A model generated the notes under the pieces. It worked only from the letters and a program-made list of their open reading frames with translations, made no database searches and was not told the DNA's origin. Both the position numbers and the translations under genes were made by a program. DNA of 64,000 bases from Zafaria cholistanensis (GTDB taxonomy: Bacteria > Actinomycetota > Actinomycetes > Actinomycetales > Micrococcaceae): the NCBI RefSeq assembly GCF_008580665.1, contig NZ_BKDJ01000014.1, positions 1 through 64,000 on the forward strand. The letters run 5' to 3'. Positions 7,236-59,363 of this stretch are shown here, piece by piece (the first letter of the stretch is position 1; each line of letters opens with the position of its first letter).

Positions 7236-8320
7236 TGTAGTTCCCACGGAGGTTGTGAACAGCGTGGCGTGATGTGAACGGGAAGGACCTCCGGTATCGA
7301 TTTGGGTTACCACACTCAAGTTCGACGCACCGGAGGTCCTCTTGTCCTACGTTACCCATGCCAATGCCGCCCTGTCGTTCCAGGGGCGCCTGAAACTGGC
7401 CCAGCTCGTCGTCGAGGAGCATTGGCCGGTGCGCCGGGCCGCCGAACGGTTCCAGGTGTCCCCGGCCACGGCCAAGAAGTGGGCCGACCGGTACCGCGCC
7501 CATGGACCGGACGGGCTGCTGCATGGGTCCTCGGCACCCAGGACCAGCCCGCGGCGCACCCCGGCCCGGCGCGAGCGGCGGATCCTCGCGCTGCGCTTCA
7601 CCCGCCGCTGGGGCCCGCACCGGATCGCCGCGCACCTTTGCATGGCCCGCTCCACCGTCTGGAAGGTCCTGACCCGGTACCGGATGCCGCCGCTGGGCTC
7701 GCTGGACCGGGCCACCGGGCTGCCCGTGCGCCGTGCGGTACCGCGCCGGTACGAACACGCAGCGCCCGGGGACCTGGTGCACGTGGACATCAAGAAGCAG
7801 GGACGGATTCCCAACGGGGGCGGGCACCGGATCCACGGGCGGGCCTCGGCCCAGCACCGCGCGGCCGGGCGGCAAAGGCCCGGCTACGCCTTCCTGCACC
7901 ACGCGGTCGATGACCACACCCGACTGGCCTATTCCGAAATCCTCGGCGACGAGCGCAAGGACACCGCCGCCGGGTTCTGGCAGCGGGCCCGGGCCTATTT
8001 CGCCGGTTTCGGCATCACCATCAAGGCCGTGCTCACCGACAACGGCTCCTGCTACCGCTCCCACGCCTTCAACCAAGCCTTAGGACCTGGCGTGAAGCAC
8101 CGCTTCACCCGCCCCTACCGGCCCCAAACCAACGGTAAGGTCGAACGCTTCAACCGCTCACTGGCCACCGAGTGGGCCTACGCCCGCCCCTACCGCTCCG
8201 AAGCCGAACGAGCCGCCGCCTACGCCCGGTGGCTGCACCACTACAATCATCATCGACCCCACTTCGGCATCGGCGGCCAAACCCCCATCAGTCGCGTTCA
8301 CAACGTCAATGGGAATTACA
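7236..8320 (+). mobile_element. Complete IS481-family insertion sequence, 1085 bp
   Basis: Both ends are visible. Left inverted repeat 7236-7260 (TGTAGTTCCCACGGAGGTTG...) pairs with right inverted repeat 8296-8320, 21 of 25 positions matching, and both begin TGT. The element is flanked by a 6-bp duplication, CCTAGC. It carries one transposase gene. The intact ends, intact transposase and perfect duplication suggest a recent and possibly active copy. Confidence 0.95.
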
Positions 8321-8325
8321 CCTAG
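7342..8325 (+). CDS. IS481-family transposase (DDE integrase fold)
   Basis: 327 aa. TTG start with GGAGG 5 nt upstream. The N-terminal helix-turn-helix (residues about 15-50, with WPVRRAAERFQVSPATAKKW) is followed by a second winged-helix region (HRIAAHLCMARSTVWKVL). The rve catalytic core carries DDE candidates in VHVDIKKQG, LTDNGSCYRS and NGKVERFNRSLATEW. The reading frame has no stop inside the element. Its TAG (8323-8325) lies in the duplicated target CCTAGC, so the host site supplies the stop codon. Confidence 0.95.
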   Translation: MSYVTHANAALSFQGRLKLAQLVVEEHWPVRRAAERFQVSPATAKKWADRYRAHGPDGLLHGSSAPRTSPRRTPARRERRILALRFTRRWGPHRIAAHLCMARSTVWKVLTRYRMPPLGSLDRATGLPVRRAVPRRYEHAAPGDLVHVDIKKQGRIPNGGGHRIHGRASAQHRAAGRQRPGYAFLHHAVDDHTRLAYSEILGDERKDTAAGFWQRARAYFAGFGITIKAVLTDNGSCYRSHAFNQALGPGVKHRFTRPYRPQTNGKVERFNRSLATEWAYARPYRSEAERAAAYARWLHHYNHHRPHFGIGGQTPISRVHNVNGNYT

Positions 8326-8326
8326 C
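8321..8326. repeat. IS481 target-site duplication, right copy
   Basis: CCTAGC directly after the right terminus. It serves two genes at once: TAG on the plus strand ends the transposase, and TAG on the minus strand (8322-8324) is the stop of the ROK gene. Confidence 0.92.
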
Positions 8327-9566
8327 GCAGCAGCAGGGCGCTGGCCTTGGGGGAAAGCAGCGCGTCCATCACCGCGCAGGCGCCCCCGATGGCGCCCACC
8401 TGGTGCCCCAGGTCCGAACTGACCACGCTGATCCCATGCAAGTCCCGGGCGACGAACCCGCCGTTGATGACCTCCGCCACGGTCGCCAGGTGGCGGCCGT
8501 CGAGCGCGGCCCACAGCGGTCCCCCGAAAATCACCTCGTCGACGTCCAGGGCGTTGGACAGGCGGCTGGCCACCTGGGCGACCATCCGCGCACCCCCGCG
8601 GACCAGGGCCGAGGCTTCACCGTTGCCGCCCAAGGCCAGTTCCACGAGGCGGTTCATGCCGGCGGCGCGGCCGGCGACCGTGGCCTCCAGCTCCTCCGGC
8701 AGGTCGATCCCGCGGCGGCGGGCCGACGCGGCCACCCGGGCGAAGGAGAAGGCGACGGCCAGGCAATCCAGCCTCCCGCATTCCCTGCACGGCTCCGCGC
8801 CCTCCTCGACGAAATCCATCCCGACCGAGAAGTGCCCCACCTCGCCGGCATTGTTGCTGACCCCGCGCAGCACCTCCCCGTTGACCACGATGCCCGCCCC
8901 GATGCCCGCCCCCAGATACATGAACACGAAGTTCTCGCGCCCGCGCTCGGGGCCCTTCCACAGTTCCGCGAGGGCCGCCGCGATCGTGTCCTTCTCGAGG
9001 AGGACGTCCATGTCCAGGCGCCTGCGCAGCGGTTCAACGATCTCCACGTAGTTCCAGCCGTCCAAAAGCGGCGGGGCGGCCAGGAAACCGCGCTCCCGGT
9101 CCATCGGCCCGGGGGCCACGACCCCCACGCCGAGGATGCGCCCGCGGGGCCGCCCGGACGCCTCGATGAGTTCCTCCACGGCACTGGCCATCGCCTCAAG
9201 GGCGCGTTCCGGGTCCTCAAGGGAGGGCTCGTCCACGCGCTTGGAGACTACGACTTCCCCGCGCAGGTCCAGCATGACCACGCTCACCATCCCCGGGTCC
9301 ACGTGGACGCCGAGGCTCAGCAGGCGGTCGGCCTCCAGTTCCAGGACCGTGCGCGGCTTGCCGGGCCCCAGCACGACCGTGCGGTCCTCGCGGACCAGCC
9401 CCTCGTCAAGCAGGCGGCGCACCACGTTGGAGATGGTCTGCGGGGACAGCCCCGTCGACTCCGCGAGTTCAACCCGGCTGACCCCGCCTGCGGCGCGGCG
9501 AATGGATTCGAAAATCACCGCCTGGTTGAAATCCCCGAGCCGGCCTAGGTTGGTGCCCCGCTGCAT
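8322..9566 (-). CDS. ROK-family transcriptional regulator (NagC/XylR type)
   Basis: 414-aa sugar-responsive repressor. The start is the ATG of MQRGTNLGRLGDFNQ, with GGAGA about 7 nt upstream; an in-frame upstream extension is not family-like. An N-terminal MarR-like helix-turn-helix (SRVELAESTGLSPQTISNVVRRLL) is followed by the ROK sugar-kinase fold with GAGIGAGIVVNGEVLRG. The structural zinc motif CRECGRLDCL (CxxCxxxxC) is present. The kinase-like fold normally senses a sugar or sugar phosphate; the ligand is not predictable here. The stop codon coincides with the IS481 target, so the insertion left the protein unchanged but may have changed its terminator. Confidence 0.92.
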   Translation of the reverse strand: MQRGTNLGRLGDFNQAVIFESIRRAAGGVSRVELAESTGLSPQTISNVVRRLLDEGLVREDRTVVLGPGKPRTVLELEADRLLSLGVHVDPGMVSVVMLDLRGEVVVSKRVDEPSLEDPERALEAMASAVEELIEASGRPRGRILGVGVVAPGPMDRERGFLAAPPLLDGWNYVEIVEPLRRRLDMDVLLEKDTIAAALAELWKGPERGRENFVFMYLGAGIGAGIVVNGEVLRGVSNNAGEVGHFSVGMDFVEEGAEPCRECGRLDCLAVAFSFARVAASARRRGIDLPEELEATVAGRAAGMNRLVELALGGNGEASALVRGGARMVAQVASRLSNALDVDEVIFGGPLWAALDGRHLATVAEVINGGFVARDLHGISVVSSDLGHQVGAIGGACAVMDALLSPKASALLLR

Positions 9567-13018: not shown

Positions 13019-15382
13019 TCAGCTGGGCGGGAACTCCGCGGTGGCCCGCAGCGGCTGCTCCCGTTCGTCGAAGGCCGGGTCCGGTTCCCCGGTGTGCGGG
13101 ACGAACCGCACCATCATGGCCTTGTACCCGGGGGTGTTGGATTCGCGGGCGACCAGTTCGCGGTGGACCAGCGCGTTGGCCTCCGGGAAGTAGGCCGCCG
13201 CGCAGCCGCGCGCGGTGGGGTAGGCGACCAGCCGGAAGCGGTTGGCGCGCCGTTCGGAGCCCTGGAAGGTGGAGATCACGTCGACCAGGTCGCGGTCCTG
13301 CAGGCCAAGCTCCTCCAGGTCCTCCGGGTTGACCAGGACCACGCGGCGGCCGTGGGAGATGCCGCGGTAGCGGTCGTCCAGGCCGTAGAACGTGGTGTTG
13401 TACTGGTCGTGGCTGCGCATCGTCTGCAGGATCAGGTGTCCTGCGGGGGCGCTGAGGTACTCCAGGGGCCTGACCGAGAACCGGGCGCGCCCGATGTCCG
13501 TGCCGAAGGTGCGGGTGTCCCGCGGCGGGTTGGGAAGCACGAACCCGTTGCGCTGGCGCACCCGGCGGTTGAAATCCTCGAAGCCGGGCAGCACGCGCGA
13601 AATGTGGTCGCGGACGACGTCGTAGTCCTCGGCCATCGCCCGCCAGTCGACGGGATGCCCGGGCCCCAGGACCGCTTCCGCCATCCGGGCCACGATCACC
13701 GGTTCGGCAAGCAGGTGGTCGGACACCGGCGCCAGGCGGCCCTGGGTGGTGTGGACCACGGACATCGAGTCCTCGACGGAGAGGAACTGCGGTCCGCCCG
13801 GGTGCTTGTCGTCCCGGTCGGTGCGCCCCAGCGTGGGCAGGATGAGCGAGGTGCGACCGTGCACCACATGCGAGCGGTTGGGTTTGGTGGAGATGTGCAC
13901 GGTCAGCCCCACGCGCTCCATTCCGGCCTCGACCACCGCGGTGTCGGAGGAGGCCAGGGAGAAGTTCCCGCCCATGGAGACGAACACGTCCACGGCGTCG
14001 CGTTCGAAGGCCTCAAGCGTTTCCACCGCGTCGTAGCCGTGCGCGCGCGGGCTGTGGATGCCAAACTCCGCATCGATCGCGGCCAGCAGGTCCTCGGTCG
14101 GCTTTTCCCAAATGCCCATGGTGCGGTCGCCCTGGACGTTGGAGTGGCCCCGGACCGGGCAGGCGCCGGCACCGGGCTTGCCGAAGTTGCCCTGCAGCAG
14201 CAGGACGTTGATGATCTCGCGCAGCGTGTCCACCGAGTGCGGCTGCTGGGTCACCCCCAGGGCCCAGCAAATGATGGTGGCCTTGGACTTGGCGAGCAGC
14301 TGCGCGATCGAGGCGATTTCCAGCCGGGAGAGCCCCGTGGCCTCCTCGGTCCGCGCCCAGTCGATCGTTGCGCGGGCGGAACGGTAGGCCTCGAACCCGT
14401 CGGTCTGGGCCTCGACGAACGCCCGGTCCACGATCGTGCCCGGGGCGCGTTCCTCCTCCTCGAGCAGCAGGTGCCCGAAGGCCTGGAACAGGGCCAGATC
14501 GCCGCCGACCTTGATTTGCAGGAACTCATCGGCAATCTGGTCGCCGCTGCCCACCACCCCGTTCACCGACTGCGGGTCCTTGAACGCCAGCAGGCCGGCT
14601 TCCGGCAGCGGGTTCACCGCCACGACCTTCGCCCCGTGCTTGCGCGCATCGGCCAGCGCCGAGAGCATCCGCGGGTGGTTGGTTCCCGGGTTCTGCCCGA
14701 CGACGAAGATCAGCTCGGCGTGCTCGAAGTCCTCCAGGGACACCGTGCCCTTGCCGATGCCGATGGTGGGCCGCAGTGCCGAACCTGACGATTCGTGGCA
14801 CATGTTGGAGCAGTCCGGCAGGTTGTTGGTACCCAGCGAGCGCGCGAACAGCTGGTACATGAAGGCGGTCTCGTTGGCGGTGCGTCCCGAGGTGTAAAAG
14901 ACGCAGCGGTCCGGGGTGGTGGCCCGCATGTGGTCTGCGATGGTGCCGAACGCCTCGCTCCAGCTGATCCGCCGGTAGCGGTCCTCCCCCGGCCGCAGGA
15001 TGACCGGCTCGGTGATCCTGCCCTGGTTGCCCAGCCAGTATTCGGTCTTGTTGCGCAGCACCTCGATGGGGTGCTTTTCCCACCATTCCGGGGTGACCGT
15101 GCGGGTGGTGCTTTCCTCGGCCAGGGCCTTGGCCCCGTTTTCGCAGAACTCGGCCGGCTTGCGGGCCCCGGTAATCGACTCGGGCCAGGCGCAGCCCGGG
15201 CAGTCCACGCCTCCGCGCTGGTTGACCCTCAGCATGGACCGCACCGTGCGGGAGACGCCCGCCTGCGCGATCCCGCGCTCCAGGGCCACCATCACCGCCT
15301 TCACCCCGGCCGCCGAGGTCTTGGGCTTGCCGACCCGGAGGTCCTCCTCGTTGATGTCCTCCACTGGTGCGAGGCGGTTCAT
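13019..15382 (-). CDS. FdhF/YdeP family molybdopterin oxidoreductase
   Basis: 787-aa bis-MGD enzyme of the YdeP branch of the formate dehydrogenase alpha-subunit family. The family is linked to acid or formate stress and its true substrate is uncertain. The reduced Fe-S motif VDCPGCAWPE (Cys61, Cys64), then Cys80, is typical of this branch. Other landmarks are YTSGRTANETAF, CHESSGSAL, the molybdopterin loops VGQNPGTNHPRM and GACPVRGHSNVQG, and SHGRRVVLVN near the C-terminal MoCo domain. Its ATG overlaps the fdhD stop by 4 bp, so the sulfur-inserting partner is co-translated with it. Confidence 0.92.
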   Translation of the reverse strand: MNRLAPVEDINEEDLRVGKPKTSAAGVKAVMVALERGIAQAGVSRTVRSMLRVNQRGGVDCPGCAWPESITGARKPAEFCENGAKALAEESTTRTVTPEWWEKHPIEVLRNKTEYWLGNQGRITEPVILRPGEDRYRRISWSEAFGTIADHMRATTPDRCVFYTSGRTANETAFMYQLFARSLGTNNLPDCSNMCHESSGSALRPTIGIGKGTVSLEDFEHAELIFVVGQNPGTNHPRMLSALADARKHGAKVVAVNPLPEAGLLAFKDPQSVNGVVGSGDQIADEFLQIKVGGDLALFQAFGHLLLEEEERAPGTIVDRAFVEAQTDGFEAYRSARATIDWARTEEATGLSRLEIASIAQLLAKSKATIICWALGVTQQPHSVDTLREIINVLLLQGNFGKPGAGACPVRGHSNVQGDRTMGIWEKPTEDLLAAIDAEFGIHSPRAHGYDAVETLEAFERDAVDVFVSMGGNFSLASSDTAVVEAGMERVGLTVHISTKPNRSHVVHGRTSLILPTLGRTDRDDKHPGGPQFLSVEDSMSVVHTTQGRLAPVSDHLLAEPVIVARMAEAVLGPGHPVDWRAMAEDYDVVRDHISRVLPGFEDFNRRVRQRNGFVLPNPPRDTRTFGTDIGRARFSVRPLEYLSAPAGHLILQTMRSHDQYNTTFYGLDDRYRGISHGRRVVLVNPEDLEELGLQDRDLVDVISTFQGSERRANRFRLVAYPTARGCAAAYFPEANALVHRELVARESNTPGYKAMMVRFVPHTGEPDPAFDEREQPLRATAEFPPS

Positions 15383-16374
15383 GCGGTCTCCTGTTCGTGC
15401 TTCGAATGCGGGGTGGCGTCCAATGCGGCCTGCCCGCGGGCGGGCTGCCTTGATGCTTGATGCCGGGGATAGGGGTCTTCAGGTACGGCCGGTGGTGCGG
15501 GGGCCGCGGCGGGCGGGCCCGCCGCACCCGCGTCCGAAGCGGCGATGCGCCCAGGGTGGGTGTAGACGTTCACGGTGCTGCCGCGGCTGAAACCCGCCAG
15601 CGTCATTCCTGCGCGCTGGGCAAGCTCGACGGCGAGGGAGGAGGGCGCGCTGACCGCGGACAGCACGGGGATCCCGGCCAGCCAGGCCTTCTGGACCAGT
15701 TCGAAGGAAGCCCGTCCGGACACTTGGAGCACGGTGTCGGCCAGCGGCAGCCGGCCTTCGCGCAGCGCCCAACCGACCACCTTGTCCACGGCGTTGTGCC
15801 GGCCGACGTCTTCGCGCAGGCACAGCAGCTCCCCCTCCGTGGTGAACAGGGCGGCCGCGTGCACGCCCCCGGTCTTGCCGAACAGCGCCTGCCCCGCGCG
15901 CAGCGTCTCCGGCAGCCGCAGCAGCACCGGCAGTTCCACCCGTCCGCGTTCCGGGTCCAGGGCGAAGCGGGAAGTCTTCGCCACCGCGTCGATCGAGGCG
16001 GTCCCGCAGATCCCGCAGGAACTGGTGGTGTACACGTGCCGGTCCAGCGAGGGGTCCGGCACGGCGGCCCCCGGTCCCAGCTGGGCCTCGACCACGTTGA
16101 AGGTCTGCCGCCCGTCCTCGTCCTCCCCGGCGCAAAAGCGCAGGCTGAGCAGGTGTTCTGCGGCGGAGACCACGCCCTCTCCCACCAGGAATCCGCCGAC
16201 CAGGTCGAAGTCGTCCCCCGGAGTGCGCATCGTGACGCTGAACGGGCGGCCTCCCAGCCGGATTTCCAGCGGCTCCTCCGCCGCCATGGTCTCCTCACGG
16301 GTGCGCGGCGCCTCCCCCAGGGAGAAGCGCACCACGCGCTGCCGCCGGGTCAGCCTGCCCATTGCCGCCTCCAT
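15379..16374 (-). CDS. fdhD: Formate dehydrogenase accessory sulfurtransferase FdhD
   Basis: About 331 aa (ATG at 16374; the in-frame ATG at 16362, MGRLTRRQRV, is equally plausible). FdhD carries sulfur from IscS to the Mo cofactor of formate dehydrogenases. The CxxC motif lies in TTSSCGICGTAS. MTRPGDDxDLxxGFL-type pterin-binding sequence is seen as MRTPGDDFDLVGGFLVGEG, and REDVGRHNAVDKVVG is strongly conserved. The Pro/Ala-rich last 50 residues are an unusual extension. Confidence 0.95.
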   Translation of the reverse strand: MEAAMGRLTRRQRVVRFSLGEAPRTREETMAAEEPLEIRLGGRPFSVTMRTPGDDFDLVGGFLVGEGVVSAAEHLLSLRFCAGEDEDGRQTFNVVEAQLGPGAAVPDPSLDRHVYTTSSCGICGTASIDAVAKTSRFALDPERGRVELPVLLRLPETLRAGQALFGKTGGVHAAALFTTEGELLCLREDVGRHNAVDKVVGWALREGRLPLADTVLQVSGRASFELVQKAWLAGIPVLSAVSAPSSLAVELAQRAGMTLAGFSRGSTVNVYTHPGRIAASDAGAAGPPAAAPAPPAVPEDPYPRHQASRQPARGQAALDATPHSKHEQETA

Positions 16375-16410
16375 CTCCGGTCCAGTTCCCGGTCCGCTGT
16401 TTACTGTTTG

Positions 16411-16479
16411 CCGTGCACCGTGTTGCCGTGCACGGTGTTGGCCTGCACGGTGTTGGCCTGCACGGTGTTAGCCTGCACC
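16411..16479. repeat. 15-bp tandem repeat, about 4.6 copies
   Basis: Units CCGTGCACCGTGTTG, CCGTGCACGGTGTTG, GCCTGCACGGTGTTG, GCCTGCACGGTGTTA and a partial fifth copy, in the 194-bp gap between moeA and fdhD. Each unit includes a GTGCAC or TGCACGGTG core, so the array also folds into short hairpins. Confidence 0.9.
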
Positions 16480-16568
16480 CTGCCGCGGCGCGCCTCAGGC
16501 GCCGGACCCCTGGCCCGCCGCCCTGTGCGCGCTTCCGCGCGGTGTGTCCCAGATCTCTTCGCCTGACG

Positions 16569-17819
16569 CTACCACGGGAGGGGAAGCCAGCAGGCGTCCG
16601 CACCCTCCCGGAGTCCCTCGGGCGGGATGACCAACAGGGCATCGGCCAGGGCCAGCCCGCGCATCATGGCGCTGCCGACGTGCTCGGCCGGGGCCAGGGC
16701 CCGGTCGGCGCCGGAGCCGATCCAGCGCGCGGGCACCAGCCTGTGCCGCCCCGGCAACGGCGGCGCGTCCCCGGCCGCACGGCAGGGCACCGGGGACGAC
16801 GCCGGTTGCCCCGCGGCCGCCCGCAGCGCCGGTTCCAGCAGGGTCGCCACCGCCACCAGCGCGGCCAGCGGGTTCCCCGGCAGCGCCAGCAGCAGCCTCC
16901 CGTCGGGGAAACGCGCCAGCAGGGCGGGGTGCCCGGGGCGCATCGCGATGCCGTCGATCAGGAATTCGGCGCCGAGCGCGCGCGCCGCCGGGCGGACATG
17001 GTCCGCCGGCGAGGCCCCGGTCCCGCCGGTGGTGACCAGGATGCGGGCGCGGCGGGCCGCGGTCCCGTCCAGGGCCTCCAGGGTGGCCTCGAGGCTGTCG
17101 CCAATCCGCGCGGTGGAGTCCACGGTGCCGCCGAGCCCGGCGACGCAGGCAGGCAGCACGGGGCCGAACGCATCGCGCACCTGCCCGGGCGCCGGTATTC
17201 CGGAGGTGACGACCTCGTCGCCGGTGAACACCAGCCGGACAGGGACCGGGGCGGCGACCGGCACCGTGTCGGCGCCGGCGACCGCGGCCACTGCCACGGC
17301 CCCGGGCACCAGGCGCGTTCCGCGCGGCAGCAGCAGGTCGCCTTCCCCCGCCTCGGTGCCGGCGGGCCTGATGTCGGTCCCGTCAGGAAGGGCGCTGCCC
17401 CCGGTCACGGTCAGCACGTCTTCGGATACCGTGCCACGTTCGCGGCGCAGCACCGCCGTCGTGCCTTGGGGCAGGGCGCCGCCGGTCAGGATCGGCACTG
17501 CCTGCCCCGCCGCCAGCGGCGGGGGCTCGCCATGGCCGGCGGGTGTGGCCGGCGGAAGCCTCCACGGGCCGGGGCCGGCCACCGCCCACCCGTCCATGGC
17601 GGAGGAGGCGTAGTGCGGCAACGCGTAGCGGGCCCGCAGGTCAGCGGCCAGGACGCGGCCGGCCGCGGCCGGCAGCGGGACGGTCTCGGGGCCGGGCAGG
17701 TGCGCCGCCAGGTGCGCGCCGGCTTCCCAGGCCGCGGCCCGGGCCGCAGGCCAGGAAAGGTCGTGTCCGGGGGACCCGTGCAGAAGGCGGCCCGGCTGTG
17801 TGGGGTGCACCAGCGTCAA
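16569..17819 (-). CDS. moeA: Molybdopterin molybdenumtransferase MoeA
   Basis: 416 aa. MoeA inserts molybdate into adenylylated molybdopterin. Conserved motifs: SSAMDGWAV near residue 70, PVLTGGALP-type sequence (PILTGGALPQGT), TTGGTGASPADHV and ALPGNPLAAL. The TTG start overlaps the upstream TGA in the string TTGA, which indicates translational coupling to the DUF6457 gene. Together with MobA and FdhD it forms a molybdenum-cofactor block. Confidence 0.94.
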   Translation of the reverse strand: MTLVHPTQPGRLLHGSPGHDLSWPAARAAAWEAGAHLAAHLPGPETVPLPAAAGRVLAADLRARYALPHYASSAMDGWAVAGPGPWRLPPATPAGHGEPPPLAAGQAVPILTGGALPQGTTAVLRRERGTVSEDVLTVTGGSALPDGTDIRPAGTEAGEGDLLLPRGTRLVPGAVAVAAVAGADTVPVAAPVPVRLVFTGDEVVTSGIPAPGQVRDAFGPVLPACVAGLGGTVDSTARIGDSLEATLEALDGTAARRARILVTTGGTGASPADHVRPAARALGAEFLIDGIAMRPGHPALLARFPDGRLLLALPGNPLAALVAVATLLEPALRAAAGQPASSPVPCRAAGDAPPLPGRHRLVPARWIGSGADRALAPAEHVGSAMMRGLALADALLVIPPEGLREGADACWLPLPW

Positions 17820-18100
17820 TCGGCGGACCGGCCGGCCTCGGCGCGGCGGCTCAGCACCGCGCGCACCACGCGGTCCGCGGCCCGCACGGAATCGGCCTCC
17901 GAAGCCTGCCCGCTTCCGGCGGCGAGGCCCGCGGCGAAACCGGCGATGTAGGTGGTGAGCGGGGCGGCGGGACGGACAATCTGGTGGGCAGCCACCCCGG
18001 CCAGGGACAGCACCGCGTCGATGTCGATGGGAGCATCGGGGATCTCGAATGCCTCCAGCAGTTCGTTAACCCACGGTTCCAGTTCCGGCTGTTCCGCCAC
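17816..18100 (-). CDS. DUF6457 domain protein
   Basis: 94 aa with GTG start. The sequence matches the small actinobacterial DUF6457 family (WVNELLEAFEIPD, then APLTTYIAGFAAG), which is typically found beside molybdenum-cofactor genes. It is mostly helical with no catalytic motif. It overlaps mobA by 35 bp at its start and moeA at its stop, so all three are translated together. A role in Mo-cofactor assembly is inference from position. Confidence 0.85.
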   Translation of the reverse strand: MAEQPELEPWVNELLEAFEIPDAPIDIDAVLSLAGVAAHQIVRPAAPLTTYIAGFAAGLAAGSGQASEADSVRAADRVVRAVLSRRAEAGRSAD

Positions 18101-18827
18101 GTGTTCCTCCTGATGCGGTCCCGTCCGCGGGCCGCTTGTTCCGTTCCGGCCGGCCGATGCCGTGCCTCCCGGCGTCGGCCCAGGTGTCGACGTCGTTGAA
18201 TTCGACGCCGTCCAGGGCCAGCCGGACTATGTGCACCTTAGCAAGCAGGAGCATCATGCTGGAGTGGGCCAGCCCTCCGGGGCCGGCCTCGGCGGCCTCC
18301 ACCGCGGCCCGCAGGGCATCGGTGGCCACGGCGCAGCTGAGCGGCTGGAGCCGGCCGGTGGCGTCGACCGGGACCCAGGCCGAGCCGGGATCGAACCCGC
18401 TCCGGGCGGCGGCCACGACCCCGCCGACGGCGGGCCCGGGGTCCAGCAGGTCCGCGGCCAGGATGACGGTCAGCGGCGATTCGCCCCGGGCTTCGGGTTC
18501 CGGATCGTCGGATTCTCCCGAGGCGTTGGCGGCACCGGTATCTTCCGCCAGGGCATGCAGCCCGGCGGCAACGGCGGCGGCAGGGCCGCCAAAGGCGGGA
18601 TGCTCCCGGGTGAGCAGGATCAGCTGCCGGGGATCGGCCGCGGCCGCGAAGCGTGAAACCGCGGCCGACAGCTCCGGGGGGCCCACAACCGCGATGCGGG
18701 CCGCCTCCGCAAGCGCCTCCAGCGAGTGCTCAAGCAGCGTCTTTCCGTGATGGACCAGCAGCGGCTTGGGCTCCCCGCCGAGCCGGCTGCCGCGGCCGCC
18801 CGCGACGACCACGGCGTCGAAGTTCAT
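18066..18827 (-). CDS. mobA: MobA-like nucleotidyltransferase
   Basis: 253 aa. The start is the ATG of MNFDAVVVAGGRGSRLGG, overlapping the HNH gene stop by 4 bp. MobA adds GMP to the Mo cofactor to form (bis)MGD. The N-terminal nucleotide-binding loop VVAGGRGSRLGGEPK deviates slightly from the standard LAGGxSxRMGxDK (Pro-Lys replaces Asp-Lys). DLLDPGPAVGG holds the metal-site Asp region. The last 40 residues are low-complexity Gly/Thr. The context next to moeA supports the assignment. A related sugar-nucleotide or CTP:molybdopterin transferase is the alternative. Confidence 0.85.
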   Translation of the reverse strand: MNFDAVVVAGGRGSRLGGEPKPLLVHHGKTLLEHSLEALAEAARIAVVGPPELSAAVSRFAAAADPRQLILLTREHPAFGGPAAAVAAGLHALAEDTGAANASGESDDPEPEARGESPLTVILAADLLDPGPAVGGVVAAARSGFDPGSAWVPVDATGRLQPLSCAVATDALRAAVEAAEAGPGGLAHSSMMLLLAKVHIVRLALDGVEFNDVDTWADAGRHGIGRPERNKRPADGTASGGTRGGTAGTGTVG

Positions 18828-19321
18828 GCGGCCCCGCTCCGCAGGAAGTCGGTCCAGGCGGGCGCCGGGCGCTCCAGTTCGGTGATGTACCACTGGGGCC
18901 CGTGCGGGCGGGTTGGAACGGTGCGCAGCGTCCACCCCAGTTGGCGCAGGGTCTTGTTGCCCTTGGCGTTGTTGCAGGCAAGGCAGCAGGCCACCAGGTT
19001 CTCCCATGTGTCTTGGCCCCCGCGCGAGCGGGGCTGGATGTGGTCCACGGTGGAGGCGTGGCGGCCACAGTAACCGCAGCTGTGTCCGTCCCGGCGCAGG
19101 ACTCCCCGCCGCGTGACGGCCGCCGCCTCCCGGTACGGGACCTTGATGTAGCGGTGCAGCAGGATCACCGAGGGACGGCCCAGCACCTCGCGCGGGCCGA
19201 CCACGGGATCGCCGTCCTCGGCCAGCACGCTGGCCTTGTCCGTCAGCACCAGCAGCAGGGCGCGGCGGAAGGTGACGACCGCAAGCGGTTCATATCCAGC
19301 ATTCAGTACCAGGGTTCGCAT
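18824..19321 (-). CDS. HNH endonuclease domain protein
   Basis: 165 aa. The start is the ATG of MRTLVLNAGYEPL, with GAGGAA upstream. The HNH/zinc region holds CGYCGRH (first CxxC), VDHIQPRSRGG (HNH histidine), WENLVACCLACNNAKGNKT (second Cys pair and catalytic Asn/His region). This family is widespread in actinobacteria and not part of a restriction system here. Its role is unknown. It heads the molybdenum gene block but has no obvious link to it. Confidence 0.9.
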   Translation of the reverse strand: MRTLVLNAGYEPLAVVTFRRALLLVLTDKASVLAEDGDPVVGPREVLGRPSVILLHRYIKVPYREAAAVTRRGVLRRDGHSCGYCGRHASTVDHIQPRSRGGQDTWENLVACCLACNNAKGNKTLRQLGWTLRTVPTRPHGPQWYITELERPAPAWTDFLRSGAA

Positions 19322-53424: not shown

Positions 53425-53907
53425 TCAGCTGATGAGGATCTGGGTGGCTTCCTCTTTGAGCTTGGCGTGGGCCCAGTGCATTTGGCGCAGCGTGTCGGGG
53501 TGGCAGCGCTGGGCGACGTCGAGCAGGTCGGTGTGCTTGATGCCCTGGGCTGCCTGACCGAGGAGGTCCCAGTCGGCGGAGACGCCGGCGGCTTTCATGT
53601 AGATCTCGCGCAGGTCGCGCAACAGCAACAGGGCCGCGTGGGAGCGCCGGCCCAGCAGTTCCGCCCCCTTTTCGCGGATCCTTTCCGCCCAGGCGCTTTC
53701 GCTCTCCGGTTCCGGGTCCAGGTCCAGGCCGTAGTTCCGTCCGATCTCGGCGATCTGGCGAATGTGCCGGTGGGACCAGCCGGCCAGGTCGCGGCCAAGG
53801 TGGTAAATCTCGTGGTCGGCCTTGTGCCGCTCGGAGACCTGGAGCAGTTCCTGCGCCAGGTCGTTCTCGGCCCGGTGCAGCTCCTCCAGCGCGAGTCCGA
53901 TCTTCAT
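53425..53907 (-). CDS. Small helical-bundle protein coupled to the molybdo-enzyme
   Basis: 160 aa, all helical. The first half holds ELHRAENDLAQELLQVSERHK and HEIYHLGRDLAGWSHRHIRQ, with many His/Glu residues in ferritin-like spacing. The second half holds ALLLLRDLREIYMKAAG, then DWDLLGQAAQGIKH, which recalls DUF892/YciE-type ferritin-like proteins. Its ATG overlaps the stop of the upstream molybdopterin oxidoreductase by 4 bp, so the two are made together. It may be a structural subunit, chaperone or metal-binding partner. Function unknown. Confidence 0.8.
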   Translation of the reverse strand: MKIGLALEELHRAENDLAQELLQVSERHKADHEIYHLGRDLAGWSHRHIRQIAEIGRNYGLDLDPEPESESAWAERIREKGAELLGRRSHAALLLLRDLREIYMKAAGVSADWDLLGQAAQGIKHTDLLDVAQRCHPDTLRQMHWAHAKLKEEATQILIS

Positions 53908-56363
53908 GCCTCACCTCCAGTGACGGAAAAGTCCTCGTCGGCCTCCGAGCCGGGACTTCCGTGGGTGCTCCAGCCGATCGGAGAGACCGGAGCGGAAGCG
54001 GTGTTGGTCGGGGCCTTCGAGGGGCCCTCGCCTCCGGAGACTTTCCGGATCCGAGCCGCGGCGGTCTTGAAGAGGGGCTGCTTGGAAGCGGCATCCCAAT
54101 CGGTGATGGTCAGCTCGTTGGCGGCCCGGCCGGCGCCGTCGGGCTCGTGGCCGGCCGGGGTGTCCCAGTAGCCGTAGTGGAAGGGCAGGAAGAGCACGCC
54201 GTCGCGGATGCCGCTGACGCGCACCTGCGCCCGCACCTTGCCGCGCGGGGTGGTGACCTCGGCGAGGTCTCCTTCGGCCAGGGCGTAGGTGCCGGCGTCG
54301 GCGGCGGACATTTCGACCCACACCTCCGGGGCGGCGGCCTGCAGCTGCAGTGCCCGGCCCGTCTTGGTGCGCGTGTGGAACTGGTAGAGGGTGCGCCCGG
54401 TGGTGAGTTGGAACGGGAAGTCCTCGCTGGGCAGCTCGTGCGGGGGCACGTATTCGGCGGCCCTGATGATGGCCCGGCCTTCCGGGTTCAGGGCCTTGTA
54501 CTCCGGCGCTTGCATCGGGGCCCCCGTGACCAGGTCCCGACCGTAGCTTTCGCAATAGTCCGGCGCGCTCCAGAACTTCCCGTCCACGTAGAGCCGTTCG
54601 GTGCCGTCGGGGTTGTCCTCGTTGCAGGGCCACTGGATGCCGGACCCGCCGCGCAGCTTGGCGTAGCTGAGGCCGGTGTAGTCGCACGGCCGCCCGCGGG
54701 TGCATTCCTTCCACGCTTCGAACGCGGACTCGGCGTCGTGCCACTTCACCAGCGGTTGCCCGTCCTTGTCTTTCAGGTCCATCCGGCGGGCGTAGTCCAG
54801 GAAGATGTCCAGGTCTGCCCTGGCCTGCCCGGGCGGCTCGACGGCCTTTTCGGACAGGTGCACGGTCCGGTCCACGTTGGTGAACGTTCCGGTCTTTTCG
54901 CCCCAGGTCGCCGCCGGGAGAACGACGTCGGCCAGCTGCGCGGTCTCGGACAGGAAGATGTCCTGCACCACCAGGAACAAACGTTCCTGGGACAGGATCG
55001 AGCGGACCCGTCCCAGCTCGGGCAGGGACACGGCCGGGTTGGTGCCGTTGACCCAGAGCATCCGGATCGATCCTTCCTCGGCGTAGCGCATCATCTGCAT
55101 CACGTGGGTGGGCGGGGACATGTGCGGGATGGACATCGGGTCCACGTTCCAGACCCGGGCCAGGTCCTGCACGTGCGCGTCGTTGGACCAGTTGCGGAAG
55201 GCCGGCAGGTCCCCGTCCCCTCCGGCCTCCCGGGTGTTCTGCGCGGTGGGCTGGCCGTTCATCTGCAGGATCCCGCACCCGGGCTTGCCGAGCATGCCGC
55301 GCACGATGTTGATGTTGTTGACCTGCACCGCGGCCGCGGTGGCCTGGTTGGACTGGTAGAAGCCCTGCAGGACGGTGGAGAGCAGGCGTTCGGCGCCGCC
55401 AATGAGGCGCGCGGCCTCCCGGATCCGGTCCGCGGGCACGTCGCAGATCGTGGCCACGGTCTCCGGCGGGTAGTCCTTGACCTGCTGCACCAGGTCCTCG
55501 AACCCCACGGTGTGGGCCTCGATGTAGCCGTGATCGACCCAGTCGTTGGCGATGATCTCGTGGAGCAGCCCGTTCATCAGGGCCACGTTCGTGCCCGGGC
55601 GCGGTGCCAGGTGCACCGTCGCGGCCCTGGCCACCGGGGTGGCGCGGGGATCAACGCAGATAATTGCCGGCGGATTCGGACCCGCCAGCCGGTCCAGGAT
55701 CCGCGCCCAGAGGACGGTCTGGGTTTCGGCCATGTTGTGCCCGTAGAGGGCGATCACGTCCGCGTGGTCGACGTCCGTGTAGGACCCGGGCTGGCCGTCG
55801 CAGGCAAAGGATTCCTTCAGGGCCGCAGCCGCGGTCGCCGTGCAGAGCCGTGTGTTCCCGTCGACGTGGTTGGTCCCCAACCCACCGTGGGCGAGGATGC
55901 CGAGCGTGTAGTACTCCTCGGCGAAGAGTTGGCCGGTGGTGTAGAAGCCGATGGCGCTGGCGCCCTGCTCGGCCAGCAGTTCCCGGGTCCTGCCGGCCAC
56001 CCGGTCCATGGCAGTGTCCCAGTCCGTCTCCACCAGTTTCCCGCCCTCGCGGATCAGCGGTACGGTCAGCCGGTCCGGGGAGGAATTGGCCTGCCACCCG
56101 TACAGGTCCTTCGGGCCCAGGCGCCCGCGGTTGACCCGGTCGACGGCGCGGCCACGCACCCCGGCGATCCGTCCGTCCTTGACCGCGATGTCCAGCGCGT
56201 CCCCGTTGGAGTGCAGGATCGAGGCCGTCTGCACCCACCGGTCCACCTCCCCAGGATCCAAGCCGTCCTCAAGGTGCGTGTCCACCCGCACGGGCCACTG
56301 CCCGCCCGCCGGGTAGGGGGTGCGTGTTCCCCACGGTTGAGCGATTCGGTCCGTGCGCTTCAT
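53904..56363 (-). CDS. Molybdopterin oxidoreductase without N-terminal Fe-S cysteines
   Basis: 819 aa from the ATG of MKRTDRIAQPWGTR, with GGGAGGGAG upstream. The overall pattern is that of assimilatory nitrate reductase/FdhF catalytic subunits. The usual [4Fe-4S] motif CxxCxxxC...GRLCxKG is replaced by VQTASILHSNGDALDI (residues 44-59) and GRLGPKD (80-86): no cluster ligand remains. The Mo ligand Cys174 in GNTRLCTATAAA is kept, as are GHNMAETQTVLWARI, NIVRGMLGKPGCGILQMNGQPTAQN (read in parts) and LTTGRTLYQFHTRT. Substrate and electron donor are unknown. Confidence 0.9.
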   Translation of the reverse strand: MKRTDRIAQPWGTRTPYPAGGQWPVRVDTHLEDGLDPGEVDRWVQTASILHSNGDALDIAVKDGRIAGVRGRAVDRVNRGRLGPKDLYGWQANSSPDRLTVPLIREGGKLVETDWDTAMDRVAGRTRELLAEQGASAIGFYTTGQLFAEEYYTLGILAHGGLGTNHVDGNTRLCTATAAAALKESFACDGQPGSYTDVDHADVIALYGHNMAETQTVLWARILDRLAGPNPPAIICVDPRATPVARAATVHLAPRPGTNVALMNGLLHEIIANDWVDHGYIEAHTVGFEDLVQQVKDYPPETVATICDVPADRIREAARLIGGAERLLSTVLQGFYQSNQATAAAVQVNNINIVRGMLGKPGCGILQMNGQPTAQNTREAGGDGDLPAFRNWSNDAHVQDLARVWNVDPMSIPHMSPPTHVMQMMRYAEEGSIRMLWVNGTNPAVSLPELGRVRSILSQERLFLVVQDIFLSETAQLADVVLPAATWGEKTGTFTNVDRTVHLSEKAVEPPGQARADLDIFLDYARRMDLKDKDGQPLVKWHDAESAFEAWKECTRGRPCDYTGLSYAKLRGGSGIQWPCNEDNPDGTERLYVDGKFWSAPDYCESYGRDLVTGAPMQAPEYKALNPEGRAIIRAAEYVPPHELPSEDFPFQLTTGRTLYQFHTRTKTGRALQLQAAAPEVWVEMSAADAGTYALAEGDLAEVTTPRGKVRAQVRVSGIRDGVLFLPFHYGYWDTPAGHEPDGAGRAANELTITDWDAASKQPLFKTAAARIRKVSGGEGPSKAPTNTASAPVSPIGWSTHGSPGSEADEDFSVTGGEA

Positions 56364-56599
56364 CCTCGGCTCCCTCCCACAAGTGGCATCGGCGGCAGCC
56401 GAGCGGCTCCGCGACCGGTCCACACCGACATTACGGAGACCGCCGGGAGCGGACAACCCGTCCCCGCGGAACCGGTGCCAGGACGAAGCCATACCGGCAT
56501 CGAATGCGCGCCGCTATCGCGTGCGGCACCGGTGATCGTGCACCGAAGCCGTCCCCGCGCACCTCCCCGGCAGCACCGGACCCGGTGCTGCCGGGGACA

Positions 56600-57171
56600 T
56601 CACTTGTCATGCCCGGATGGGGCCGGTTTAGTGCCAAGGAGGATGTTCAGTGTCCATCCGAGCAGGGTGACCAAAACGACCGCCCCCGCCATCGAAGCCA
56701 TCTGCACAGGCGTGCTCAGGATGCCCAGACTCACGATGAGGGTCGTTGCGCCCGCAGGTGGATGGGGCATCCTGATCCAAGTCAACACGAACGTAGTCAA
56801 TGCCACGGACAGGGCCCCGGCCGCAAGGTGCGCCGGGGCCAAGCCGCCGACGGGAGCCGCCGGTACGTTCTGCAGACCGAAGACATACAGGCACAGCGCC
56901 CCGGCCATCAGCGCCACCGCATGGCCGACGAGTGCGTTGGCAGGCCGCGAGGCCTGCTGAGCCGGAGACTCAAAAAACAGCATCACCGTGGGACCCAGGC
57001 TGGGAAAAGCCACGGCAGGTGGGTCAGCAGCCCCACCGCCCCGCTGGCAGCCAGCACGGCCAAACACAGCACGGCCGCATACATGCCAGATCCCAAGCTT
57101 CCCCCAGCCGCAGCCAGCCGCTGCCACAACGGTTCTCGCACCATCCCTCCGCCCTCCGTCCGCAATGACAT
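56600..57171 (-). pseudogene. HPP-family membrane protein, frameshifted
   Basis: The gene would begin MSLRTEGGGMVREPLW. The first part runs to THLPWLF in one frame (stop follows as PAWVPR). The rest, PSLGPTVMLFFESPAQQASRP and ALVGHAVALMAG and HPPAGATTLIVS, continues in another frame. The HPP motif and GH are intact. Restoring one base in the run CTTTTCCC (about 57005-57009) gives WLFPSLGPT and a full HPP protein. HPP proteins are four-TM, often nitrite or anion linked. A true lesion or a sequence error are both possible. Confidence 0.85.
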
Positions 57172-57324
57172 GGCATAGCCTCGCGCTTGCAAGCAGGTCC
57201 CGAGCGCCACCGGACAACAGAACCCAAGCCAAACGCGATCTGCAAGGGTTCAGCCTTCCAAACCGCCCCTGGCAAGGTGGCCCGGAGGCAGGGACCGGGA
57301 CCGGATGGTTGGCCGGCGGGAGCA

Positions 57325-57660
57325 TCAGGACTCGTCCGTTTTCCTGAGGAAGAATGCACCGACCGTGCCGGCGAGGGCCGCGAAAACGGCGACGGAATAG
57401 ATGGCCAGCAGGACCTGGACGATGCGTGAGAAAGTGCCGGCACCGGTGATTCCATTGCCGATGACAGCCGCCATGGACGACAGGGACTGGGCATAGGAGG
57501 CATGCTCCCGGCGGCATACAGGAACTGGCTCGAGACCAGAACCACGATGGCGCTGACGGCACTGACGGCACTGAGCCACCCGAGCCTGCGGGCCCCGCTT
57601 TCCCGGCTCAGGCTTCGCAACCGATCCCTTCGGGCACCCACAACCGAATGGACGGCACCG
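57325..57660 (-). pseudogene. Truncated, frameshifted paralogue of the ion-channel gene
   Basis: It matches the C-terminal half of the intact channel gene at 58605-59363. GWLSAVSAVSAIVVLVSSQFLYAAG parallels GWLAATTAVVILTSSQLLYAAG. After a one-base loss in the G run near 57507-57510 the other frame continues SYAQSLSSMAAVIGNGI and IVQVLLAIYSVAVFAALAG, parallel to KVLQIVLAVYSVAVFATLAG. The first four helices are missing. It lies on the opposite strand to the intact copy, 1 kb away. Confidence 0.85.
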
Positions 57661-57764
57661 CAGAGGCCTAGAGTGGTGCACAAGCCGCACCCCCTTAGGG
57701 TCCCTGGAGTATGGGCCGGCGGGGGCGGCCCCGTGCAGGTTGTATCCGATTCCGAGGAGGACCG

Positions 57765-58604: not shown

Positions 58605-59363
58605 GTGGGCGGCACAGGACACAGCGGGGCGCGGAGCCGGCTGCAGCACGCGGAAAGCCTCGCCGCCCGCTTGGACCGGCCCATGGGCCTGCTCGGGGTC
58701 CTCTTCCTGCTGGTGGTCCTGGGCCAGCTGCTGGTCCGCGACCCCGGATGGACCCGGGCCTTTACGGTGGCGGGCTGGGTGTTCTGGGTCGTGTTCGTCG
58801 CCGAGTTCCTCCTGCGCGCCTACGTGGCCCGGTTCCAGGCCGCGTTTTGGAAAAGGAACTGGTGGCAGGCCGTGTTCCTGCTCGTTCCGTTCCTGCGCTT
58901 CTTCCGCGCCCTGCAAATCCTGCGCCTGGTACGGCTCGGACGCCTGGCGCGGTTCGGCGGCATCCTCTCCGCCGGGGTCCGGGGGTCCCGCTCGGCCGGA
59001 CGGCTGCTCTCCAACCGGATCGGCTGGCTGGCCGCCACAACGGCCGTCGTGATCCTGACCTCCAGCCAACTGCTCTACGCCGCGGGCTCCCACACCGACT
59101 ACACGGCCGCCCTGCACGAGGCGGCCATGGCCACGATCACCGGCAGCGGCATCACCAGCCAGGATGCGTTCTCGAAGGTCCTGCAGATCGTGCTGGCCGT
59201 CTACTCGGTCGCCGTGTTCGCCACCCTCGCCGGTTCCCTCGGCGCCTACTTCCTGCGAGAAAAGCCACCACCCCCGCCCCACACCACCGCACTGCACACT
59301 CCCGCCCCACCCCCAAGACCGGCCCCAGACGACTCGGAGGACGCCCAGTGGAGATCGAACTGA
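58605..59363 (+). CDS. Voltage-gated-like ion channel protein with unusual pore filter
   Basis: 252 aa with GTG start after CGGAGG. Six membrane helices are suggested. S4-like helix 4 reads RFFRALQILRLVRLGRLARFG, with an Arg every third or fourth residue (read in parts). The pore helix and filter region is MATITGSGITSQDAFSKV, where K+ channels have T-V-G-Y-G-D. The S6 helix VLQIVLAVYSVAVFATLAG is channel-like. Selectivity cannot be predicted. A frameshifted partial copy lies upstream on the other strand. The end overlaps the next gene by 16 bp. Confidence 0.85.
   Translation: MGGTGHSGARSRLQHAESLAARLDRPMGLLGVLFLLVVLGQLLVRDPGWTRAFTVAGWVFWVVFVAEFLLRAYVARFQAAFWKRNWWQAVFLLVPFLRFFRALQILRLVRLGRLARFGGILSAGVRGSRSAGRLLSNRIGWLAATTAVVILTSSQLLYAAGSHTDYTAALHEAAMATITGSGITSQDAFSKVLQIVLAVYSVAVFATLAGSLGAYFLREKPPPPPHTTALHTPAPPPRPAPDDSEDAQWRSN

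Follow-up and report, generated by a model that had tools for sequence, protein, structure and literature searches.

The Nap/Nas/Fdh branch of the molybdenum oxidoreductases carries a Cys-ligated metal, and its proximal cluster is viewed as the gate through which electrons reach Mo. The DMSO, TMAO and biotin sulfoxide reductases (DorA, TorA and BisC) are bis-MGD enzymes that are active without an Fe-S cluster in the catalytic subunit, and their Mo ligand is Ser, not Cys. Arsenite oxidase (AioA), from a different branch, with no Cys Mo ligand and with a Rieske partner, has a CxxCxxxC motif from which the fourth Cys is gone, and holds a [3Fe-4S] cluster. System-specific chaperones are often small helical proteins encoded beside bis-MGD enzymes. 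Catalytic subunits of the DMSO-reductase family have also been reported without an Fe-S motif in the catechol dehydroxylases of Gordonibacter (PMC11574389).

The pair of genes described here, A and B, lies in a 64,000-nucleotide stretch of Zafaria cholistanensis DNA, referred to as the window. Gene A (53904..56363, minus strand) encodes an 819-aa molybdopterin (bis-MGD) oxidoreductase of the Nap/Nas/Fdh branch with matches to PF00384 (2e-58) and PF01568 (4e-26); PF04879, the Fe4S4 domain with its four Cys ligands, is absent from its Pfam matches. A start at 56363, and not a longer open reading frame from 56492, is supported by alignments of homologues that begin at residue 1. The old cluster stretch reads VQTASILHSNGDALDI plus GRLGPKD. 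Residues 48-59 (56187..56222, minus strand), once CxxCxxxC, are now S48xxH51xxxD55, and residues 81-86 (56106..56123, minus strand), R-L-G83-P-K85-D86, replace RLCxKG. Cys174, the Mo ligand, is retained and followed by Thr175 (55842..55844, minus strand), and Arg378 (55230..55232, minus strand) aligns with the active-site Arg of NapA. Lys85, Arg172, Cys174 and Arg378 show no variation across the 137 sequences aligned. Selenocysteine in place of the Cys at the Mo site was rejected, as the in-frame stops in readable matches map close to the C-terminus (query 781-782) or to 23 and 596, and none to residue 174.

By sequence, the top solved relatives of A are the HDCR FdhF and Desulfovibrio desulfuricans NapA, the latter also having the nearest fold by predicted structure (E 1e-54, 32% identity). 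With the periplasmic and assimilatory nitrate reductases NapA and NasA/NarB it shares the fold, the domain order, the Mo-ligand Cys in an RLC motif, the active-site Arg and the Lys between cluster site and pterin, and its Mo site (RLC, GQP...R) is nitrate-reductase-like. It is distinct from them in having no [4Fe-4S] ligands, a Thr instead of Met behind the Mo Cys, a ferritin-like partner and, in many members, a stress promoter. Its NCBIfam scores are all below cut-off: 406, 355 and 302 bits for NasC, NasA and NapA (cut-offs 1100, 1000 and 904), 450 for Fdh-alpha (666) and 118 for bisC_fam (1018). Formate dehydrogenase activity was rejected since the His behind the Mo Cys that marks those enzymes is not found, C174-T175 being present in 136 of 137 sequences. 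As Thr175 stands where NapA and a paralogue in the same genome have Met, the substrate may differ. A Nap-like Mo site combined with equivalog scores that all fall short means that A probably functions like the nitrate-reductase branch, yet should not be classed as one of the nitrate reductases. The likeness to DorA, TorA and BisC is limited to being an Fe-S-free bis-MGD enzyme, as A has Cys as its Mo ligand and the sequences are distant, while the Gordonibacter dehydroxylases, which also lack the motif, are of another branch with other substrates. A second molybdoenzyme (FdhF/YdeP-like, 13019-15382) lies with FdhD, MoeA and MobA genes in a cofactor-maturation cluster at 13019-19007 of the window, ~35 kb from A-B.

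A genome scan recovered at least 80 actinobacterial loci with 72-84% identity to A. The cluster cysteines are missing from all 80 loci among the matches listed, and H51, D55 and Cys174 are common to 81 of 81 close sequences, so their loss is not a sequencing accident. Further relatives, mostly at 57-67% identity and one at 41%, came from plasmid records and more genomes. The resulting 137-sequence alignment comprises 119 HD-type members ([STA]xxHxxxD with [GD]PKD), 16 C-type members (CxxCxxxC with GPKG), a Gloeothece sequence with GPKG and a missing N-terminus, and the own-genome paralogue; no intermediates between the two types occur in it. C-type members are found in Deinococcus, Hymenobacter, Halomonas, other actinobacteria (Curtobacterium) and a staphylococcus. 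Annotated as 'nitrate reductase', they share with HD-type A ~60% identity, the active site, partner B and often an adjacent HPP gene, and differ in keeping CxxCxxxC and in having no SigF promoter found. Both types occur together in one genome (G216), and the family as a whole, HD-type and C-type counted together, is present in 89 of the 396 Mycobacterium genomes sampled.

Out of 819 columns, only 51 (H/C), 55 (D/C) and 86 (D/G) are fixed within each type yet differ between them, which indicates that the cluster pocket changed as a unit. H51, D55 and D86 are invariant in 119/119 HD-type sequences, as is the Ser, Thr or Ala at 48, and a ligand set of C-C-C-(G)-G has been swapped wholesale for S/T/A-H-D-(G/D)-D. 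In the C-type, Gly already stands at the position of the fourth Cys (83), so that no more than three Cys could hold a cluster there, a likeness to AioA, and the HD clade lost three ligands relative to the C-type, not four. In a tree built without the ligand stretch the C-type members are basal; a single HD-type origin was not recovered by a fast ML tree and was not rejected either (AU p 0.246). The HD-type thus appears to have arisen once or twice, two histories that the tree and the AU test do not separate.

A sequence-only reading of this locus had the coordinates of both genes, their 4-bp overlap, the Cys-free stretch of residues 44-59, GRLGPKD and Cys174 all correct, and its central point, that the Fe-S ligands are really gone from an enzyme with its active site kept, which must then exchange electrons without a proximal cluster, is borne out by the close homologues. 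Its statement that every [4Fe-4S] ligand had been replaced is accurate in that A has no cluster Cys, and overstated in that the fourth position had changed already. Relatives with all four cysteines were named there as evidence against it; cysteine-bearing relatives do exist, at ~60% identity, with three cysteines rather than four.

From sequence comparison, then, the cluster ligands are gone, the Mo site is kept, B is co-inherited and a SigF promoter precedes many HD-type genes. The best explanation, with a probability of about 0.55, is that A and B are the two subunits of an Fe-S-free Mo oxidoreductase of the nitrate-reductase branch, under general-stress control in many actinobacteria, with a putative small oxidised substrate reduced at Mo, a presumed direct supply of electrons and a conjectured structural role for B. 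Candidate substrates are oxyanions (nitrate or chlorate, for example) and N- or S-oxides. An external donor would feed electrons straight to Mo, as in the Fe-S-free DMSO, TMAO and biotin sulfoxide reductases, and B would be a permanent structural or docking subunit and not a replacement redox centre. H51, D55 and D86 may stabilise the emptied pocket or hold one metal ion. For an enzyme made during aerobic stress, it would be fitting to do without a cluster sensitive to oxygen and peroxide. Counted in favour of this explanation were the 80/80 adjacency with its 4-bp overlap, the Halomonas fusion, columns 51, 55 and 86, the active site invariant in 137 sequences, the NapA fold, the fold of B, the SigF motif and the HPP and FNT neighbours. 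Counted against it were the narB deletion without a nitrate phenotype (the gene being unexpressed there), the lack of a strict SigF motif in the window, the sub-cut-off NCBIfam scores, Thr175, and the absence of HPP from most HD-type loci.

The three switched columns also admit a different account, held only tentatively, in which the old [4Fe-4S] pocket is now dedicated to a His-Asp-Asp metal site (H51, D55, D86), a new mononuclear centre that relays electrons in the cluster's stead via Lys85 to the pterin, or that supports different chemistry at the bis-MGD Mo. Three potential ligands that appeared together, invariant in 119/119 sequences, are consistent with this, as is Lys85, which is invariant in both types. 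However, a salt-bridge network filling an empty pocket would equally give His-Asp-Asp, and electrons cannot be passed on by a metal that keeps to a single redox state.

Gene B (53425..53907, minus strand) encodes a 160-aa protein and overlaps A by 4 bp, the TGA stop of A being at 53904-53906 and the ATG of B starting from 53907. Among the matches listed, B is directly downstream of A in 80/80 loci, mostly with the identical overlap. Of the 136 family members collected, 133 have an identified B, which accompanies HD-type and C-type A alike. The two genes are therefore a unit, as had been proposed, and are not mostly apart, which had been put forward as an observation that would count against the proposal. 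Two of the three exceptions (L105, L153) have no B and in the third (L104) B is broken up. L105:5434-8409 is the 41% relative, a C-type gene on a Staphylococcus saprophyticus plasmid with no recognisable B and a 181-aa gene directly upstream. L104, from Gloeothece PCC 7822, has the B region split into two small annotated genes (8138-8559) and an A without a start, and is probably a decaying copy. Elsewhere, L014:1501-1830 is a decayed copy whose single short frame contains parts of A (69-122) and of B (109-160). At L160:3977-4621 a B-like gene occurs as an orphan, with no A; the surrounding stretch includes a large catalase gene.

A natural A-B fusion of ~942 aa is found in Halomonas sp. KO116 (L103:5983-8811), a locus where fdhD and a formate dehydrogenase are close by. 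At three further loci (L145:3966-6878, L147:1212-4139 and L148:2552-5479), all HD-type and actinobacterial, A and B share a reading frame that only a single stop codon (TAG or TAA) interrupts, where read-through would fuse them; modelled as one read-through chain, L145 gave pLDDT 86 and pTM 0.82, figures for the whole chain and not for the interface.

For B, a ferritin-like bundle is predicted. Its AlphaFold model is a confident four-helix bundle (pLDDT 91, pTM 0.85), for which ferritins, bacterioferritins and YciE-like proteins rank first in Foldseek (E only 0.01) and in VIA-align (Z 17-18, 9-14% identity), and its weak sequence-profile matches, DUF892, DUF2383 and COG1633, are of the same superfamily. 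That B might instead be a dedicated maturation chaperone of A, comparable to TorD or NarJ, and not a subunit of the working enzyme, would suit a small helical protein encoded beside a bis-MGD enzyme. We consider this rather unlikely, given a predicted fold that fits ferritin-like proteins, the Halomonas fusion and the three in-frame A-stop-B loci. The structural matches listed for the B model do not include a TorD/NarJ fold.

The residues conserved in B are E14, S/C45xxH48, D98 and Q142xxW145, with a spacing that fits the six ferritin ligand positions E, ExxH, E, ExxH. Mapped by this spacing, three of the six positions would be replaced, by Ser/Cys, Gln and Trp, so that the diiron site appears half eroded; B would thus resemble bacterioferritin, YciE/DUF892 and XCC3681 in its predicted four-helix fold, but with about half of the diiron ligands replaced. 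The sequence-only reading had put B forward as a candidate for the electron route that stands in for the lost cluster, which would make this ferritin-like metal site a replacement redox centre. E14, H48 and D98 of the ligand pattern are conserved, and HD-type B has the extra fixed residues E9, D40, W44, R100, D112 and H136, mostly missing from C-type B, so that an adaptation to the loss of the cluster is possible. However, B also adjoins, or is fused to, A with CxxCxxxC; it therefore predates the loss and did not arise to replace the cluster, and with its seemingly incomplete ligand set we regard such a centre as doubtful, to much the same degree as the chaperone.

Regulation of the pair was approached through the SigF motif GTTT-N14..19-GGGTA, searched upstream of A. 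It is present in 25/32 mycobacterial and 14/87 other HD-type genes, in 0/17 C-type genes and in 0/136 inside-gene controls, and in G216 it is found only at the HD-type copy. A strict motif was not found upstream of the copy in the window. In Mycobacterium smegmatis, expression of MSMEG_2837 (NarB) and MSMEG_2838 is lower in a sigF mutant, with GTTT-N16-GGGTA at 42 bp (PMC4694148). The same N16 motif lies 43 bp before gene A at one of our loci, whose genome (G176) encodes a 99% identical MspA, an approximate figure. On these two matches MSMEG_2837-2838 is almost certainly an HD-type A-B pair, with G176 as its likely genome, and differs from the window pair in having the strict motif. The earlier suggestion that the pair may be uncharacterised was nearly right, the exception being these M. 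smegmatis genes, which are in the SigF regulon and of which narB has been deleted with nitrate use unaffected, narB not being expressed in the media used (PMC7816997). The lost cluster and this lack of a nitrate phenotype might suggest that A has no catalytic activity and is retained for a structural or regulatory function; this is highly improbable with 183 of 819 columns invariant in HD-type A, every Mo-site residue examined among them.

Upstream of A in the window is a gene for an HPP-family membrane protein, a putative anion transporter (56600..57571, minus strand; PF04982, 1.7e-15). HPP adjoins A-B in C-type and early-branching HD-type loci and is absent from most HD-type loci; FNT is also among the neighbours. 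When the neighbourhood beyond A-B was compared, no other cluster occurred in more than 9 of 117 loci. Co-transcription of HPP with A-B in the window was rejected, given a gap of ~240 bp and an inverted repeat between them (56565..56596), read from the sequence as a terminator-like stem with no T run. HPP is an ancestral neighbour of A-B, probably with a separate transcript here. A plant HPP protein transports nitrite (PMC4137279). Beside the HPP gene, a short minus-strand frame (57325-57690) resembles the end of a channel-like protein at 58605-59363 and is possibly a duplicated fragment.

The A-B pair is real and conserved, and is not described as such in the literature searched, where a search for the family by function found nothing specific. 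Its HD-type form occurs in many soil actinobacteria, and on present sequence comparisons it is best read as a variant of the nitrate-reductase branch that is linked to stress, lacks Fe-S and has a putative substrate. 'Nitrate reductase' and 'NarB' cannot safely be used as names for a gene this widespread. The proximal cluster has been lost from a large clade, in one event or very few and with exactly three columns switched. The two types, ~60% identical, with the same partner and sometimes in one genome, constitute a natural experiment, and HD-type A-B is a good target for testing how a nitrate-reductase-like enzyme works without its cluster.
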